This document shows, in pieces, positions 6,434-57,582 of a stretch of 64,000 bases of DNA. The notes under the pieces were generated by a model. That model saw only the letters and a list, made by a program, of their open reading frames with translations, was not told where the DNA came from and did no database searches. Each line of letters starts with the position of its first letter. Position 1 is the stretch's first letter. Location of the stretch: positions 155,827 to 219,826 of the forward strand of contig NZ_LELK01000004.1 of NCBI RefSeq assembly GCF_001039475.1, read 5' to 3'. Origin of the DNA: Guptibacillus hwajinpoensis (GTDB lineage: Bacteria; Bacillota; Bacilli; Bacillales; Guptibacillaceae). The position numbers and the translations under genes are program-made.

Positions 6434-8414
6434 CGATCAGCCTCCGAAAACAAAAGAAGAGAAAGAACACCTAACAGACGAACAAACGCAGGAATTGATG
6501 GCCAAATTTGATCCAGAAGCAGGACATCGCAGGCTGACAGGCATACTTGGGTGGATCTCATTAGCTGGACTTGTCGGCTTCTCCGTCTTTCAGCTGTATA
6601 CGGCGATCTTTGGAGTATTCACTGCACAGCTTCAGCGCTCAATTCACTTAGCGTTCGCGCTCGGACTTATTTTTCTATTGTTTCCAGCATCAAAGAAAAG
6701 GTTAAAAAAGAAAACGCGATTTCAGGTTGCCTGGTATGATGGGCTGCTTGCACTTATTGGAGTGTATGTCGGCATGTACTGGCCGCTTAACTTTGAAGAG
6801 CTCGTTTTCCGGGTTGGTCGTCTAACAACGCTTGATTTAATTGTCGGGCTTTTAGCGATTCTCCTTGTTCTTGAAGCGACGAGGCGAGTAGTAGGGTTAC
6901 CGATTACGATCATTACGTCGATTTTCTTGCTATATTCGTATTTTGGTCCTTATATGCCAGGCTTTCTTCAACACAGAGGACTAAGCATCGACCGAATTAT
7001 TCGTTCGATGTATTTTACAACAGAAGGGATCCTTGGAACCCCACTCGGTGTATCGGCAACGTTTATTTTTCTCTTCCTTCTATTTGGTGCCTTTCTCGTG
7101 AAAACGGGTGTAGGTCAATACTTCAATGACCTCGCCCTTGTCATCGCAGGAAAGCGAGTTGGCGGACCAGCTAAAGTAGCGATATTCTCAAGTGCGCTTC
7201 AAGGAACGATTAGCGGAAGCTCTGTTGCCAACGTTGTAACGTCTGGTTCCTTTACCATTCCAATGATGAAACGTCTTGGCTATCGAAAAGAGTTTGCTGG
7301 TGGCGTTGAAGCGGCTGCTTCAACAGGTGGTCAGCTTATGCCACCGATTATGGGAGCGGCAGCATTCCTAATGGTTGAATTTATTGGTGGCGGCATTACA
7401 TATTGGGAAATTGCTAAGGCTGCTGCAATCCCTGCGCTGCTATATTTCACAGGAATTTGGATTATGACACACTTTGAAGCGAAACGAATTGGCTTACGAG
7501 GGCTAACTGAAGAAGAAATGCCAGATCGAAAAGCGGTTCTCGTCAAAATTTACTTGCTGTTTCCGATCGTAGCGGTTATTTTCTTTTTAATGTCTGGTAC
7601 ATCTGTTACACGTGCTGCACTTTATGCCATTCTAACCGCAATAATAGTTGGCGCAATTAATAAGGAAACGCGAATGGGCATAGGTGATTTCATTGATGCA
7701 CTTGCAAATGGTGCACGAACGGCACTCGGAGTTGCTGCAGCGACGGCCGCAGCGGGTATGATTGTTGGGGTTGTGACACTTACAGGTCTCGGACTGAAGC
7801 TTGCGAATAGCCTTGTTTCCCTTTCTGGTGAGAACCTTCTACTCACTCTTTTCTTTACGATGATTGCATCGTTAATACTTGGGATGGGCTCACCTACAAC
7901 AGCAAACTATGTTATCACATCAACGATTGCGGCACCTGCGCTGATCGTGCTTTCAGTGCCTGAGCTTTCTGCGCATATGTTTGTGTTCTACTTCGGAATC
8001 GTCGCAGACATTACGCCACCTGTAGCCCTCGCAGCGTTTGCGGCAGCTGGTGTGTCAGGGGGCGAGCCGCTCCGAACCGGGGTGCAATCGGCAAAGCTCG
8101 CCATCGCCGCGTTTATCATTCCATACATTTTCGTGCTCTCACCTGAGCTGATGATGATTGATACAACGTGGCAAAGCCTTCTATGGGTTCTGTTCACATC
8201 TTTAACAGGTATGATTAGTATTGGTGCAGGTATGATTGGGTACTGGTACCGCCGAACGAATGTTGTTGAGCGAATCGCAGGCGTTGCAGCTGGTGTTATG
8301 CTTATTTATCCAGAAGGATTTACTGACTTAATTGGGCTTGGTCTCTTTATTGCCTTACTCGTTCTTCAATTTGTTGTGAAGGGTGACGACAAAAAACAAG
8401 TTGCCAATGCATAA
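6417..8414 (+). CDS. TRAP transporter permease, fused small and large subunits
   Basis: A 665-residue inner-membrane protein driving secondary, ion-coupled uptake of the ligand delivered by the TAXI lipoprotein. A first block of four membrane segments (about residues 40-170) corresponds to the DctQ subunit. A DctM block follows, with the conserved GTISGSSVANVVTSGSFTIP and GGQLMPPIMGAAAFLMVEF loops repeated in related form in the second half (GMGSPTTANYVI and TPPVALAAFAAAG). The length is usual for the 4TM-12TM fusion. An AAAGGAG site lies 4 bases before the ATG; the TTG two codons later has better spacing and may be the true start. Confidence 0.93.
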   Translation: MFLSNNDQPPKTKEEKEHLTDEQTQELMAKFDPEAGHRRLTGILGWISLAGLVGFSVFQLYTAIFGVFTAQLQRSIHLAFALGLIFLLFPASKKRLKKKTRFQVAWYDGLLALIGVYVGMYWPLNFEELVFRVGRLTTLDLIVGLLAILLVLEATRRVVGLPITIITSIFLLYSYFGPYMPGFLQHRGLSIDRIIRSMYFTTEGILGTPLGVSATFIFLFLLFGAFLVKTGVGQYFNDLALVIAGKRVGGPAKVAIFSSALQGTISGSSVANVVTSGSFTIPMMKRLGYRKEFAGGVEAAASTGGQLMPPIMGAAAFLMVEFIGGGITYWEIAKAAAIPALLYFTGIWIMTHFEAKRIGLRGLTEEEMPDRKAVLVKIYLLFPIVAVIFFLMSGTSVTRAALYAILTAIIVGAINKETRMGIGDFIDALANGARTALGVAAATAAAGMIVGVVTLTGLGLKLANSLVSLSGENLLLTLFFTMIASLILGMGSPTTANYVITSTIAAPALIVLSVPELSAHMFVFYFGIVADITPPVALAAFAAAGVSGGEPLRTGVQSAKLAIAAFIIPYIFVLSPELMMIDTTWQSLLWVLFTSLTGMISIGAGMIGYWYRRTNVVERIAGVAAGVMLIYPEGFTDLIGLGLFIALLVLQFVVKGDDKKQVANA

Positions 8415-53546: not shown

Positions 53547-54056
53547 ATGTATCCATTCATATTCATTAGCATCGCCCTTCATCTCGTTAGCTTTCTATGT
53601 ATCGTACTCCTTTACTTAAAGCAGTCGAAGAGCTCTGAAGTGAGAGAAGAAGTGGCATCAAGTATGGAGGAATATATCGAACAGCTTGAGCAAGAAAATG
53701 ACCGGCTGATGACCAAGGTAAAAACGTTTGTAGAGAAGCGGGACAATCAGCTCGACATCCGCCTTCGGGTTCTCGAGCAGAACGGAAACTCAGTTAAGCC
53801 TCAACCTGAGCCACAGAACTCAGAGTCGCCAAAACTTGTAGAACCAGTTCACTACCGCCAGCAACCAATTCAACCGCCAGAGTCGAAAAATCCCATCGTC
53901 ATTCAGCATCCATCCTCCAAAAACGAACGCAATCAAAAAGCGATTCAGCTCTACCAACAGGGCTTTGCCGCAAATGACATCGCGAGACTACTTAATTGCG
54001 GAACCGGAGAAGTTGAGCTCATTGTAAACATGCACGGAAGGTCTGGACAGCGATGA
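53547..54056 (+). CDS. SwrB-like (DUF6115) membrane protein
   Basis: 169 residues: an N-terminal membrane helix (about 3-24), a coiled-coil region (about 35-75), a proline-rich linker, and a small C-terminal helix-turn-helix-like segment (AIQLYQQGFAANDIARLLNCGTGEVELIVNM). This is the layout of DUF6115 proteins, including SwrB, which follows sigD in B. subtilis and promotes assembly of the export apparatus. The identification rests on layout and position. Confidence 0.7.
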   Translation: MYPFIFISIALHLVSFLCIVLLYLKQSKSSEVREEVASSMEEYIEQLEQENDRLMTKVKTFVEKRDNQLDIRLRVLEQNGNSVKPQPEPQNSESPKLVEPVHYRQQPIQPPESKNPIVIQHPSSKNERNQKAIQLYQQGFAANDIARLLNCGTGEVELIVNMHGRSGQR

Positions 54057-54487
54057 AAATTCAACAGAGCCAAGCTTCGCCTGATCTGTTTAAGAAAGAC
54101 ATGCAGAAAGGGAGCATCCAAAAAGGTTTTCAATCTGCAATGAATGAAGCGTCTAAAGAGTTAAAAGGCGTGGCACTAGAGCGTCTTCTTACGCAAATTG
54201 ATGAACAAGGCAAAGTCCTCACGAAAGAACGAACGCTCCAAAACGTAACGGCGTATAAACGATTGGTGAAGCAGTTTTTAGAAGAAGCTGTTCATCACGG
54301 ATTAACGCTTTCTGAGAAAAACAGCACAGATCGGTATGGCAGACACCGAACGTTTAAACTTGTTGAAACGGTTGAAAATAAGTTAGTTGAGTTGCAGGAA
54401 GAAATTCTCGATAAAGAGAAGGATGGCGTCAACCTATTGTCACTGATCGGTGAAATCAAAGGAATGCTCGTAGATCTTTCCCTCTAG
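54053..54487 (+). CDS. YaaR family (DUF327) protein
   Basis: 144 residues, helical and charged. ERLLTQIDEQGKVLTKERTLQNVTAYKRLVKQFLEEAVHHGL and RTFKLVETVENKLVELQEEILDKEKDGVNLLSLIGEIKGMLVDL are characteristic of the YaaR / DUF327 family. Its function is unknown. It overlaps the swrB-like gene by 4 bases and is the last gene of the fla operon before a terminator. Confidence 0.8.
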   Translation: MKIQQSQASPDLFKKDMQKGSIQKGFQSAMNEASKELKGVALERLLTQIDEQGKVLTKERTLQNVTAYKRLVKQFLEEAVHHGLTLSEKNSTDRYGRHRTFKLVETVENKLVELQEEILDKEKDGVNLLSLIGEIKGMLVDLSL

Positions 54488-54518: not shown

Positions 54519-54547
54519 GACTCATGTTAAAAAGCATGAGTTTTTTC
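54519..54547 (+). terminator. terminator closing the flagellar operon
   Basis: CTCATG and CATGAG form a 6-bp stem followed by six T. It lies between the yaaR-like gene and the SigO-like cassette. Confidence 0.65.
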
Positions 54548-54643
54548 TATAATATAAATAAGAACATACGTTCGAATTTATGGTTGTGAAAATCGCCACC
54601 CAGGATACTTTCTATCCTACATACAGAGAAGGGAGAGGTGAGA

Positions 54644-55225
54644 ATGTTGAACAAGTGTCCATTTATAACGACGAAAGCGTATGAGGAACTGAAGGAAAAC
54701 CTCCTTTTCAAATCGTTCGTTCAAGAAGACGTTCATTGGACAAGTTTTAGGGAGGCTTTCACGAACCCGAATCCGAAGTCGTTAGCGAATTTAAATAAAC
54801 AGTTTCACATGTATTACGTCGAAATACGATTTATTGCTTATCTAACGAAGCTAATCCGGTACACGGCCATTAATTTCGATCGCAAGCGGAGGCTTGAGCA
54901 TCTTCGTTATCCATTAACGTTAGATCAGCCTGTAGGAGAATCCGGAAGCACGTGGATTGATCTTGTTGAAGGTAGAACGAATAGTGAGATAAACCACTGC
55001 TTTGAAGATCAGCTAGTCTCGAGATCTCTTTATTCTGCATACAAAAGGCTGACAGGAAAGCAGAAGGAAGTTCTAGAGCTTTCTTATCGTTTAGGAGCGA
55101 GCGATACGGAAATCGCTCAATCGAGAGGCATATCGCAGCAGGCTGTAAGCAGGAGACGAAAGCGCGCACTTGAGAAGCTTAAATACGAAAGGAGAGCGTA
55201 CGATGACTGTAACGAATGTAATTAA
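54644..55225 (+). CDS. SigO-like sigma factor (large subunit of a two-part sigma factor)
   Basis: 193 residues. The C-terminus is a clear sigma region 4: TGKQKEVLELSYRLGASDTEIAQSRGISQQAVSRRRKRALEKL with a helix-turn-helix. The N-terminal part has a basic region-2.3/2.4-like helix (FIAYLTKLIRYTAINFDRKRR) but lacks a recognisable regions 2.1-2.2. In B. subtilis SigO (YvrI) this part is supplied by RsoA. The next two genes here are a YvrJ protein and an RsoA-like protein, supporting the assignment. The ATG with GGGAG is chosen over a GTG two codons earlier. Confidence 0.75.
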   Translation: MLNKCPFITTKAYEELKENLLFKSFVQEDVHWTSFREAFTNPNPKSLANLNKQFHMYYVEIRFIAYLTKLIRYTAINFDRKRRLEHLRYPLTLDQPVGESGSTWIDLVEGRTNSEINHCFEDQLVSRSLYSAYKRLTGKQKEVLELSYRLGASDTEIAQSRGISQQAVSRRRKRALEKLKYERRAYDDCNECN

Positions 55226-55349
55226 CGCCATGATCGGTGATTTAGGGTTCCCCATCGTTTTATCACTGTATTTGCTATTTCGCCTTGAAAGGAAAATCGA
55301 TGATTTAACAAATGCTATTTCTGAGCAGGAGATGGGTAAAAAGAGATGA
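55203..55349 (+). CDS. yvrJ: YvrJ family protein
   Basis: 48 residues, too short for most ORF scans. MIGDLGFPIVLSLYLLFRLERKIDDLTNAI is the YvrJ family pattern: one membrane helix followed by an amphipathic helix, reminiscent of small holin-like proteins. AAAGGAGAG stands before the ATG inside the end of the sigma gene (23-base overlap), and its stop overlaps the next start by 4 bases (ATGA). The function is unknown. In B. subtilis yvrJ accompanies sigO and rsoA. Confidence 0.8.
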   Translation: MTVTNVINAMIGDLGFPIVLSLYLLFRLERKIDDLTNAISEQEMGKKR

Positions 55350-55591
55350 CGAACGCCAGGTTATATACACTTTTACAGCAAGCGAAACAAAATGAAGATG
55401 AAGCGTTAGAGCTGATTTTTAGGCAATTTGAGAAAAAAATTGAAGCAGAGCTCAGGCAGACGCCTTACGAATACCGAGATGATTTAAGGCAGGAGCTCTA
55501 CGTGAAAATCCTTGAAGCAGTCGAGAAGTATAGCATAGATGAAGTACCGAATTTCGAGCAATTTATAGAGGAGAAGAAAGGGAAAGGGTAG
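55346..55591 (+). CDS. rsoA: RsoA-like sigma co-factor
   Basis: An 81-residue acidic protein. LYTLLQQAKQNEDEALELIFRQFEKKIEAEL and YRDDLRQELYVKILEAVEKYSIDEVPNFEQF follow the pattern of sigma regions 2.1-2.2, and nothing of region 4 is present. In B. subtilis RsoA (YvrHa) pairs with SigO to make a working sigma factor. The translational coupling through YvrJ fits a fixed ratio. The symbol is given on family and context and the sequence similarity is moderate. Confidence 0.72.
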   Translation: MTNARLYTLLQQAKQNEDEALELIFRQFEKKIEAELRQTPYEYRDDLRQELYVKILEAVEKYSIDEVPNFEQFIEEKKGKG

Positions 55592-55639: not shown

Positions 55640-56341
55640 ATGCTGAATGTTGCAATAGAAGAAGCTGGTTATGAAAAGAACAGTCAAACAATAACAGATC
55701 TATCGTTTAGCGTGAAAAGTGGCGAGTTGCTCGGTCTATTAGGATCGAATGGAGCTGGTAAAAGTACGACAATCAAAACGATTTTGGGATTAATGAAAGA
55801 GTGGAAAGGATCCGTAACATTTGAGGGTGATGCTCGCTATGCCTATATCCCAGAGCAGCCTGTTTTCTATGACAGTTTAACGCTCTGGGAGCATTTAGAG
55901 CTTGCCGCAACAGCGGTGTCGTTGCAAGACGGTGATTGGGAGGAGCGCGCACAAGAGCTCATTCGCTATTTCAAGCTGGGTCATGTCGTACACGATCTTC
56001 CGTCTAGTTTCTCAAAAGGTATGAAACAAAAAGTAATGCTGATTACAGCTTTTATGCTTAAGCCTGATTTATATATCATTGACGAGCCGTTTCTAGGTCT
56101 AGATCCACGCGCAACGAAAGACTTTCTAAAGCTAATCGAAAAAGAAAGAGCACGTGGCGCGGGGGTACTTATGTCGACGCACGTACTCGATACAGCAGAA
56201 CGAATTTGCGACCGATTTGTGCTTATTTCAAGTGGAATAATGGCTGCTGAAGGTACGCTTGATGAATGGAGAGAGCGAACAGGGATGGAGACCGGCACGC
56301 TCCTCGATTGTGTGGATCGTTTATTGGAGCAAACCATATGA
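55640..56341 (+). CDS. ABC transporter ATP-binding protein, EcsA/YthP family
   Basis: A 233-residue ATPase. Walker A is GSNGAGKST, the signature loop is SSFSKGMKQKV, Walker B is LYIIDEPFLGLDP and the switch histidine lies in MSTHVLD. The FSKGM form of the signature is typical of EcsA and its paralogue YthP. It overlaps the membrane subunit by 4 bases. EcsAB in B. subtilis is needed for secretion, competence and intramembrane proteolysis. The absence of hit next to it leaves EcsA versus YthP open. Confidence 0.85.
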   Translation: MLNVAIEEAGYEKNSQTITDLSFSVKSGELLGLLGSNGAGKSTTIKTILGLMKEWKGSVTFEGDARYAYIPEQPVFYDSLTLWEHLELAATAVSLQDGDWEERAQELIRYFKLGHVVHDLPSSFSKGMKQKVMLITAFMLKPDLYIIDEPFLGLDPRATKDFLKLIEKERARGAGVLMSTHVLDTAERICDRFVLISSGIMAAEGTLDEWRERTGMETGTLLDCVDRLLEQTI

Positions 56342-57582
56342 CATCTTTTCAGTTGCTAAAAAAGCGGGTGAGTGATGATCGGCGTTATAAGTTACGCGAT
56401 CTTCGAACAGCACTTGATTGGACTGTGTGGTTTTACATCCTTATTCCAGCGCTAATCGTTTCGGTCGTCTATTATCAGTCATGGTGGATTATGGCACCTG
56501 AATGGCTAAATTTTGTCCCAGAGCAAGCAATGATGGTGCCGTTATTTCTCGGTGCTACATGGTGGTCGCTTAGAGTGTATTTGGAAGAAGCAGATCAAGT
56601 ATATATTTTACAAAATCAGAATCTCGTAGATGGCTTGAAAAAGTGGGGAATGGTGCACTCACTTCTGAAAGGATCTGTACTTACGCTCTTCAGTATCGCT
56701 GTTGTACTGCCGTTCCTCATTACAGGTTGGAATTGGGGAATGGAGCAAGTAGTCATAACAGGAATTTTTGTGCTACTTGCAAGTTGGAATGTGAACGTTT
56801 GTCGGTATTTTATTGATCTTACCATTCAGTCGATTTGGATAAAATGGATTCCACTTATGATGGTGAACGTCGTTTCGATTGGGATTCTTGTTTTTGTGAG
56901 TCAGGTTGGTTGGAAGTCGAGAGAGTTTGTGTTTGTAGGCGTTGCTCTTCTCCTCGTTCTTCTAATAGCTCAGTTATACTACCGTATCAAGGTGAAGGGT
57001 ACGTTTTTTCACGATGTCATGATGGAGCGCGGGTATAAACAAAGTGTAACCAACTTACTTATGAAACAGGTTGGCGTTTCATCTGGTAGAACAGTGCTTG
57101 TACGAAAGAAACCGTTTCTTTTTAAAGGATCAAAAAGGCTAAGAAAACAGGGAAGTCCTGAGACGAGAATTGTTGATTTATATGTGAAATGGCTTCTTCG
57201 TTCGCCTGGTAAGGTGCAGTATTATTTACAGGTGACGGGATGGGGCATAGCTGCTATCTTCCTTCTCCCATTAGTTGTGAAGGTGATTGTACTCCTTTTT
57301 GCGCTGTATGCGTTTATCGGTCTATCGAAAGCAGACTGGCATGAATTCTCTGAAAGGAGTTATGCCCAGTTATTTCAGTGGGATCAACAGCTTAGAGAAT
57401 TGTCGGCTAAAAAAGCTAGTAAGGTTTTTACGATGCCGTGTTTTATCTTGGTGTGTGTGATGACGGGAGTAGCGTTCCCTGGATGGATCGGGATGTTACT
57501 TTTTCCATTGGGAGGATGGGTTATGATGATGGGAAGTATTCGAATGGTGCATCAGGATGTTCGTTCTTCATCCCCTCAATAA
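56338..57582 (+). CDS. ABC transporter membrane subunit, EcsB/YthQ family
   Basis: A 414-residue polytopic protein with membrane segments near 32-50, 60-78, 105-125, 130-150, 165-185, 193-210, and several in the last 120 residues. LLKKRVSDDRRYKLRDLRTALDW at the start and RTVLVRKKPFLFKGSKRLRKQ in the large cytoplasmic loop match EcsB-type proteins. I start at the ATG overlapping the ATPase stop; the longer ORF reads back into the ATPase gene. No terminator is evident after it. Confidence 0.82.
   Translation: MTSFQLLKKRVSDDRRYKLRDLRTALDWTVWFYILIPALIVSVVYYQSWWIMAPEWLNFVPEQAMMVPLFLGATWWSLRVYLEEADQVYILQNQNLVDGLKKWGMVHSLLKGSVLTLFSIAVVLPFLITGWNWGMEQVVITGIFVLLASWNVNVCRYFIDLTIQSIWIKWIPLMMVNVVSIGILVFVSQVGWKSREFVFVGVALLLVLLIAQLYYRIKVKGTFFHDVMMERGYKQSVTNLLMKQVGVSSGRTVLVRKKPFLFKGSKRLRKQGSPETRIVDLYVKWLLRSPGKVQYYLQVTGWGIAAIFLLPLVVKVIVLLFALYAFIGLSKADWHEFSERSYAQLFQWDQQLRELSAKKASKVFTMPCFILVCVMTGVAFPGWIGMLLFPLGGWVMMMGSIRMVHQDVRSSSPQ

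Follow-up and report, generated by a model that had tools for sequence, protein, structure and literature searches.

In Guptibacillus hwajinpoensis, the three-gene cassette sigO-yvrJ-rsoA behind the flagellar operon probably encodes an SOS-gated, self-amplifying split sigma factor together with a holin-like YvrJ protein (probability about 0.6). The cassette lies in the window, the whole stretch of 64,000 nucleotides that was analysed. From its genes, motifs, conservation and neighbours, we infer LexA binding, sigma assembly, promoter use, induction and membrane action in the following way. LexA at 54561-54574 would hold the cassette off; DNA damage would remove LexA, and a basal promoter would then yield a little of the SigO-like protein, the RsoA-like protein and YvrJ. 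The SigO-like protein would read the DNA (through region 4 and a part resembling region 2.3-2.4), the RsoA-like protein would provide the core-binding region 2.1-2.2, and both could join as one sigma factor on RNA polymerase, reading GGTTGT-N20-CTTT. The split sigma factor would fire its own promoter, giving a switch-like burst from which YvrJ would also arise as a holin-like membrane effector. In relatives, the same sigma factor would also fire peptidoglycan hydrolase and bacteriocin-like genes; in the window's genome, the cassette is the only conserved target found, and an ecsAB-type transporter may be read through. This suggests a circuit for self-amplifying lysis or toxin release, rather than the acid-stress role of the Bacillus subtilis system. 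The features of the region are as follows.

54053-54487: DUF327 gene of the flagellar operon, upstream of the cassette
54519-54542, plus strand: terminator-like hairpin (10-pair stem, T-run) between the flagellar operon and the cassette
54548-54553, plus strand: TATAAT, shortly upstream of the LexA-type box; it may be the -10 of a vegetative promoter for basal expression
54561-54574, no strand assigned: LexA-type (SOS) box, AGAACATACGTTCG, with core GAACATACGTTC at 54562-54573
54582-54618, plus strand: auto-promoter-like element, GGTTGT-N20-CTTTCTATCCT, with the -35-like part at 54582-54587 and the -10-like part at 54608-54618
54644-55225, plus strand: sigO-like gene, sigma subunit of 193 aa, start ATG at 54644
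55203-55349, plus strand: yvrJ, 48 aa, one hydrophobic stretch, holin-like (PF12841)
55346-55591, plus strand: rsoA-like gene, sigma region 2.1-2.2 subunit of 81 aa (PF12645)
55640-56341, plus strand: ABC ATPase, EcsA by position and reading (ABC_tran, 4.8e-25), 48 nt behind rsoA
56335-57582, plus strand: EcsB-type membrane protein (PF05975, 2.4e-38)

An earlier note on this DNA had placed three overlapping genes here, with an EcsAB-type transporter and no oxdC beside them, and both statements held: the open reading frames were confirmed at 54644-55225, 55203-55349 and 55346-55591, and the ABC ATPase and EcsB (PF05975) were found among the ORFs behind. The overlaps are 23 nt between sigO and yvrJ and ATGA between yvrJ and rsoA; sigO has an extra in-frame GTG at 54638, and the 48-aa frame of yvrJ is part of a 59-aa ORF listed from TTG 55170. 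The trio is present in all 15 family genomes searched (16 loci), which excludes chance as the source of the three-gene cassette; one of these genomes has two cassettes, the second copy being diverged. This second copy is the only one of the 16 family loci without the DUF327 gene upstream. Flagellar co-control of the cassette was set aside because of the terminator-like hairpin in between. Terminator-like sites in the region number 3, against 3.1 in shuffles, and the hairpin form is visible by eye in the upstream sequences across the genus.

Wider comparisons used 107 cassettes, drawn from the family and 299 sampled genomes of the order; loci were picked by RsoA matches. Among the 112 RsoA loci examined, 106 also held a SigO-like gene (107 cassettes), and six (L055, L061, L112, L134, L135 and L143) yielded no cassette. 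RsoA matches that were broken or at contig edges (G170, G186, G285 and the second match of G200) and a fragment in G123 were left out. Loci are called B. subtilis type when their genomes score over the RsoA cut-off. All counts include kin: the family's 16 loci are close relatives of one another, as are the members of several other groups.

In the profile searches that the earlier note called for, the SigO-like protein matched Sigma70_r4 (1e-8, Pfam), and YvrJ matched PF12841 (1.8e-14; 53.4 bits over a curated cut-off of 29.5). The RsoA-like protein fell short at the equivalog level, matching the NCBIfam RsoA model NF041489 at 1.3e-9 and 37.9 bits, under the curated cut-off of 100. It does pass the cut-off of PF12645, 'HTH_16' (1.8e-8; 34.8 bits over 22), a family matched by 26 of 28 members (window included) at E<=0.1, which may be linked to regulators of Tn916-type elements. 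The name 'HTH_16' was rejected as a description of this protein, as the fold search leads to sigma region 2 (with weak E-values and Z <=7.5).

The match of the SigO-like protein to TIGR02937 begins only at profile position 38 of 165, and regions 2.1-2.2 are therefore taken as missing from it; a complete region 2 in this 193-residue protein, which would have spoken against two subunits, was thus not found, and the two-subunit reading stands. The motif [DE][DEN]LxQE, which we take to be that of core-binding region 2.2, is present in 92 of the 107 RsoA-like proteins and absent from the first 130 residues of every one of the 107 SigO-like proteins. Together with a predicted model that resembles sigma region 2, this supports the assignment of the 81-residue protein to regions 2.1-2.2. 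In that model (mean pLDDT 81.5), residues 1-67 align to residues 2-69 of Escherichia coli sigma-E (Z 7.3), and the 16 best Foldseek rows are all sigma factors, with E-values of 0.09 and more; Z reached at most 7.5, and neither the RsoA-like nor the SigO-like model gave a Foldseek E <0.001. The SigO-like model (mean pLDDT 75.8) has an N-terminal helical domain, a flexible linker and then sigma region 4 at about residues 122-190, for which the good rows give Z about 10 and rmsd 1.1-1.7 over 60-63 residues. The N-terminal domain, helical in the model and barely probed by the fold comparison, may be region 2.3-2.4-like from about residue 49. Motif split and predicted folds thus support a split sigma factor of the SigO/RsoA type, as the note had proposed; what fell away is close orthology with the B. 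subtilis pair, since identity to two B. subtilis-type loci is only 29-30% for SigO and 31-33% for RsoA.

The putative auto-promoter lies directly downstream of the LexA-type box. When spacings of 8-33 nt between GGTTGT and CTTT were counted freely, the commonest was 20 nt, in 39 cassettes (all 16 family loci and 23 among the remaining 91); six cassettes had 19 nt, five had 21 nt, and no other spacing exceeded five. GGTTGT occurs anywhere upstream in only 56 of the 107. With the 20-nt spacing imposed, the consensus is GGTTGT-N20-YCTTTATATAGT. A weighted score, with weights derived from the same 107 cassettes that were scored, was passed by 52 of them (family 15/16, others 37/85, B. subtilis type 0/6) and by none of the 107 shuffled upstream regions (one shuffle each). 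The combination of box and GGTTGT gave 23 sites in 21 of the 299 genomes, against 3 for the reversed pattern, and 18 of the 23 stand at cassettes and 5 elsewhere. On this pattern, the element is probably the promoter read by the split sigma factor, and hence a means of self-activation under a LexA operator. At five box-plus-GGTTGT sites (L021, L022, L026, L033 and L041), no SigO-like gene was found behind.

Scanning the cassette loci with the element gave 125 matches, and shuffled sequence gave 23. Of the 125, 54 are at the cassettes' own promoters, and several of the other 71 lie, by reading, within coding sequence. Genes that have the element 16-106 nt upstream encode Amidase_3, Peptidase M15 (with PG-binding domain), glutaredoxin, S8 peptidase and DUF3238 proteins, a phospholipase-A2-like protein and small proteins that belong to no family. 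The element precedes 3 of 13 amidase genes, 8 of 12 M15 or PG-binding genes, 6 of 10 glutaredoxin genes, 1 of 3 phospholipase-like genes, both DUF3238 genes, 3 of 10 S8 genes and 2 of 75 yvrJ genes. The target classes carry it in 23 of 50 cases, against 10 of 499, with a Fisher p of 2e-19 that is overstated because the classes were picked from the scan's own promoter matches. The earlier note had asked which genes the sigma factor serves and why a membrane peptide is coupled between its two halves; the box, the element, the lytic or bacteriocin-like genes in relatives and the pairing of YvrJ with amidases, described below, offer a possible answer to the two questions. The second, diverged cassette of one genus member (L165:6340-10294; contig C12, G012) is followed by an amidase under the element, and the same locus has a 772-aa PG-binding-like ORF at 7976 with a LexA-type palindrome at 7961.

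For the window's own genome, the scan for cassette-like promoters proposed in the earlier note disclosed no second site with genus-wide conservation or with a gene behind it. The pattern GGTTGT-N20-CTTTMWT, which matches neither the consensus CTTTATA nor the CTTTCTA of the window, gave 29 sites in the 15 family genomes and 29 in the reversed control, and counts for a 2-mismatch version and for GGTTGT-N19-21-CTTTAWW in these genomes were near the reversed control; by reading, the cassette site is the only promoter site recurring genus-wide among them. Three own-genome sites were checked: one lies within an ORF, and for the other two no ORF of >=60 aa starts within 250 nt. The six Amidase_3-like matches in this genome have no element scoring >16.5 before an ORF within their 1.5-kb flanks, which do contain two weaker elements (16.0 and 15.2) before short ORFs. 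The transcription unit is likely sigO-yvrJ-rsoA, perhaps with ecsAB included, since no terminator is listed in the 48-nt gap between rsoA and the ABC ATPase gene. It is accordingly conceivable, if rather unlikely, that the output in the genus is this transporter, for export or immunity, and not lysis. The ABC ATPase gene adjoins the cassette in 13 of 15 family genomes, and such genes also occur near plasmid cassettes; however, the transporter is not beside the cassette in L016 and L017, a hairpin-like stretch precedes it in L018 (by eye), and the 48-nt gap contains no GGTTGT promoter of its own.

YvrJ of the window has a single hydrophobic stretch, with a hydropathy maximum of 1.69, and a weak match to PHROG 4898 'holin' (3.9e-4); in the YvrJ set, all 38 members match PF12841 and 35 match PHROG 4898 at E<=0.01. 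Of the 13 Amidase_3 loci, 10 have a same-strand yvrJ gene no more than 300 nt away; by reading, seven of the ten look closely related to each other. Because of this adjacency and the PHROG 4898 matches, we prefer YvrJ as a holin-like membrane partner for wall hydrolases, a role that has roughly even odds. A membrane-bound regulator of the split sigma factor, either anti-sigma or anchor, seems about half as probable and would explain the place of yvrJ between the two halves: in the window, yvrJ overlaps the genes of both subunits, and in 62 of the 107 cassettes it lies on the same strand within 900 nt of rsoA. Against a regulator, however, no yvrJ was detected there in the other 45, most members match the holin family, and yvrJ also stands beside amidases and in trios without a sigma gene. 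Two further yvrJ copies in the window's genome belong to such DUF1659-DUF2922-YvrJ trios, which are near-identical (L001:1459-2175 and L002:1462-2173, on contigs C7 and C14 of G000; Pfam run on the first) and have no sigma gene within their 3.1-kb loci. They share an upstream sequence, ATGCCCCTTTTTCCATTTTCAAAACGATATATAGGG, that is unlike the cassette promoter, and were rejected as sigma targets because neither has a GGTTGT element immediately upstream; the gene preceding the second trio does contain one GGTTGT. In relatives, the small membrane peptide beside amidase or lysozyme genes resembles the holin-endolysin cassettes of phages and plasmids, whereas the window has no adjacent hydrolase and control would fall to a split sigma factor. 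A phage origin was not adopted as the main reading, as matches are few and weak: phage records gave four weak SigO matches, none covering 80% of the protein.

GAACN4GTTC occurs in the window only at 54561-54574; 1.25 occurrences are expected by chance, so that the significance of the box comes from its conservation. Counted from -260 to +60 around sigO, the exact palindrome is found at 83 of the 107 cassettes, comprising all 16 family loci, 67 of 85 others and none of the 6 B. subtilis-type loci; the controls gave 7 among 2140 shuffled upstream regions and 7 sites in the 631,757 bases that make up the remainder of the cassette loci (0.35% per counting window). Ten of the 24 cassettes without an exact box, two of them B. 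subtilis-type, show a one-letter variant, and in some families the box sits behind the promoter element rather than in front. The window's genome encodes LexA and has like boxes upstream of lexA, one with half-sites identical to those of the cassette box. By motif, the cassette thus has a LexA-box sequence near its promoter, as expected of a member of the SOS regulon, and LexA may act there. The TATAAT that could serve basal expression has no recognisable -35 and is not among the sigma-70 scan results.

It is improbable that another dimeric repressor binds the palindrome in response to a signal other than DNA damage, which would leave the sigma circuit unchanged. In its favour, the letters beside the palindrome core vary among loci, and the pattern GAACRNRYGTTC, present at five places in the window's genome, is not enriched there (6 strand hits against 13 for the reversed control). 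One of these perfect sites precedes an isochorismatase-like ORF (L206:1501, by reading). However, the palindrome matches the boxes upstream of lexA, and another perfect one stands before an ORF read as a Y-family polymerase. The remaining GAACRNRYGTTC sites comprise one before a WYL-domain ORF and one without a nameable gene.

Least probable is simple orthology with the SigO-RsoA system of B. subtilis, with a response to envelope or acid stress through oxdC-like targets and an incidental palindrome. This reading has the same split-protein pair and the RsoA model match of 1.3e-9 on its side, as well as a B. subtilis pair that is reported to activate oxdC-yvrL, yvrJ and its own operon (PMC8103513), but the RsoA cut-off is missed by far, the box marks every family locus and no B. 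subtilis-type locus, and the genome has no oxalate decarboxylase over the cut-off (one sub-threshold cupin match).

The split sigma factor SigO-RsoA (YvrI-YvrHa) of B. subtilis is known (PMC8103513, PMC10028694), with self-activation and a yvrJ promoter reported in its regulon (PMC8103513), and has region-4 and region-2 proteins encoded together and accompanied by YvrJ, like the cassette described here. In contrast to the B. subtilis type, yvrJ lies inside the operon here and is divergent in L044 (named by reading), and the window has a LexA-type box, no oxdC and different core promoter letters (by reading). In a midpoint-rooted FastTree phylogeny, the B. subtilis-type loci appear as one clade among box-bearing loci. 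It is about as likely as not that SigO-RsoA-type sigma factors of Bacillales and Paenibacillus plasmids are mostly LexA-gated, self-amplifying switches for lysis and bacteriocin release with YvrJ as a holin-like partner, and that the acid-stress system of B. subtilis is an exception derived by loss of the SOS box.

A second precedent comes from Clostridium perfringens, where UviA is a one-piece sigma factor, unlike the split pair here, and UviB is holin-like. The UviA-UviB system resembles the cassette, by description, in combining a sigma factor and a small protein with a putative LexA site; sigma factor UviA is reported to drive the SOS-inducible bacteriocin BCN5, and UviB is termed immunity-related (PMC4459074). 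Among the matches listed in our literature search (titles and abstract openings), no SigO-RsoA-type sigma factor linked to LexA was found. Within that search, the combination of a split sigma factor under a LexA-type box, a promoter signature, lytic or bacteriocin-like neighbours and the link to YvrJ appears to be new. If the pattern holds, the acid-stress and oxalate decarboxylase case of B. subtilis would be atypical, most relatives being placed behind a DNA-damage repressor and many standing near lytic or toxin-like genes, some on plasmids. It would also offer a reason for splitting a sigma factor, namely an AND gate guarding a suicidal or costly output, a testable function for the YvrJ family, so far uncharacterised, and a promoter signature with which to look for new SOS-induced bacteriocins.

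Plasmids were approached through 20 records found by similarity to the window's SigO protein, a set that is not fully independent of the genome sample, as similar plasmids may be present in part of the 299 genomes. An RsoA-like gene is present on 18 of the 20 and the box on 15. On the first nine, 13 of 18 promoter matches lie <=200 nt upstream of an annotated CDS, against 3 in the reversed control. On two of three Paenibacillus plasmids, the element occurs at two places, one in front of sigO and the other in front of a gene for a cell-wall hydrolase (L269) or a phage-type lysozyme (L270); on the third, L272, sigO alone is preceded by it, and the box is absent. Phospholipase-like genes occur on 16 of 72,556 plasmids, and 8 of these 16 are among the 20 SigO-bearing plasmids; the other eight are Bacillus plasmids with no SigO match among those listed. 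The element precedes the phospholipase-like genes in L105, L226 and L230, and no promoter match over threshold was found for the plasmid cassettes with such genes in L228, L232, L267 and L268. Megacin A of Priestia megaterium is a UV-inducible phospholipase bacteriocin, to which the phospholipase-A2-like genes on 8 of the 20 SigO-bearing plasmids may be likened. On pGeo12b, an IS21-type element lies directly upstream of sigO (L230:3983-5937) and may have displaced the SOS box. Genome G087 has four RsoA-family matches (L170, L103, L104 and L128), three of them within about 19 kb. Beside two plasmid cassettes lie proteins of 670 aa (L226:6500-8512) and 340 aa (L229:2598-3620) with no Pfam family, the former preceded by the promoter element; both are candidate bacteriocins.
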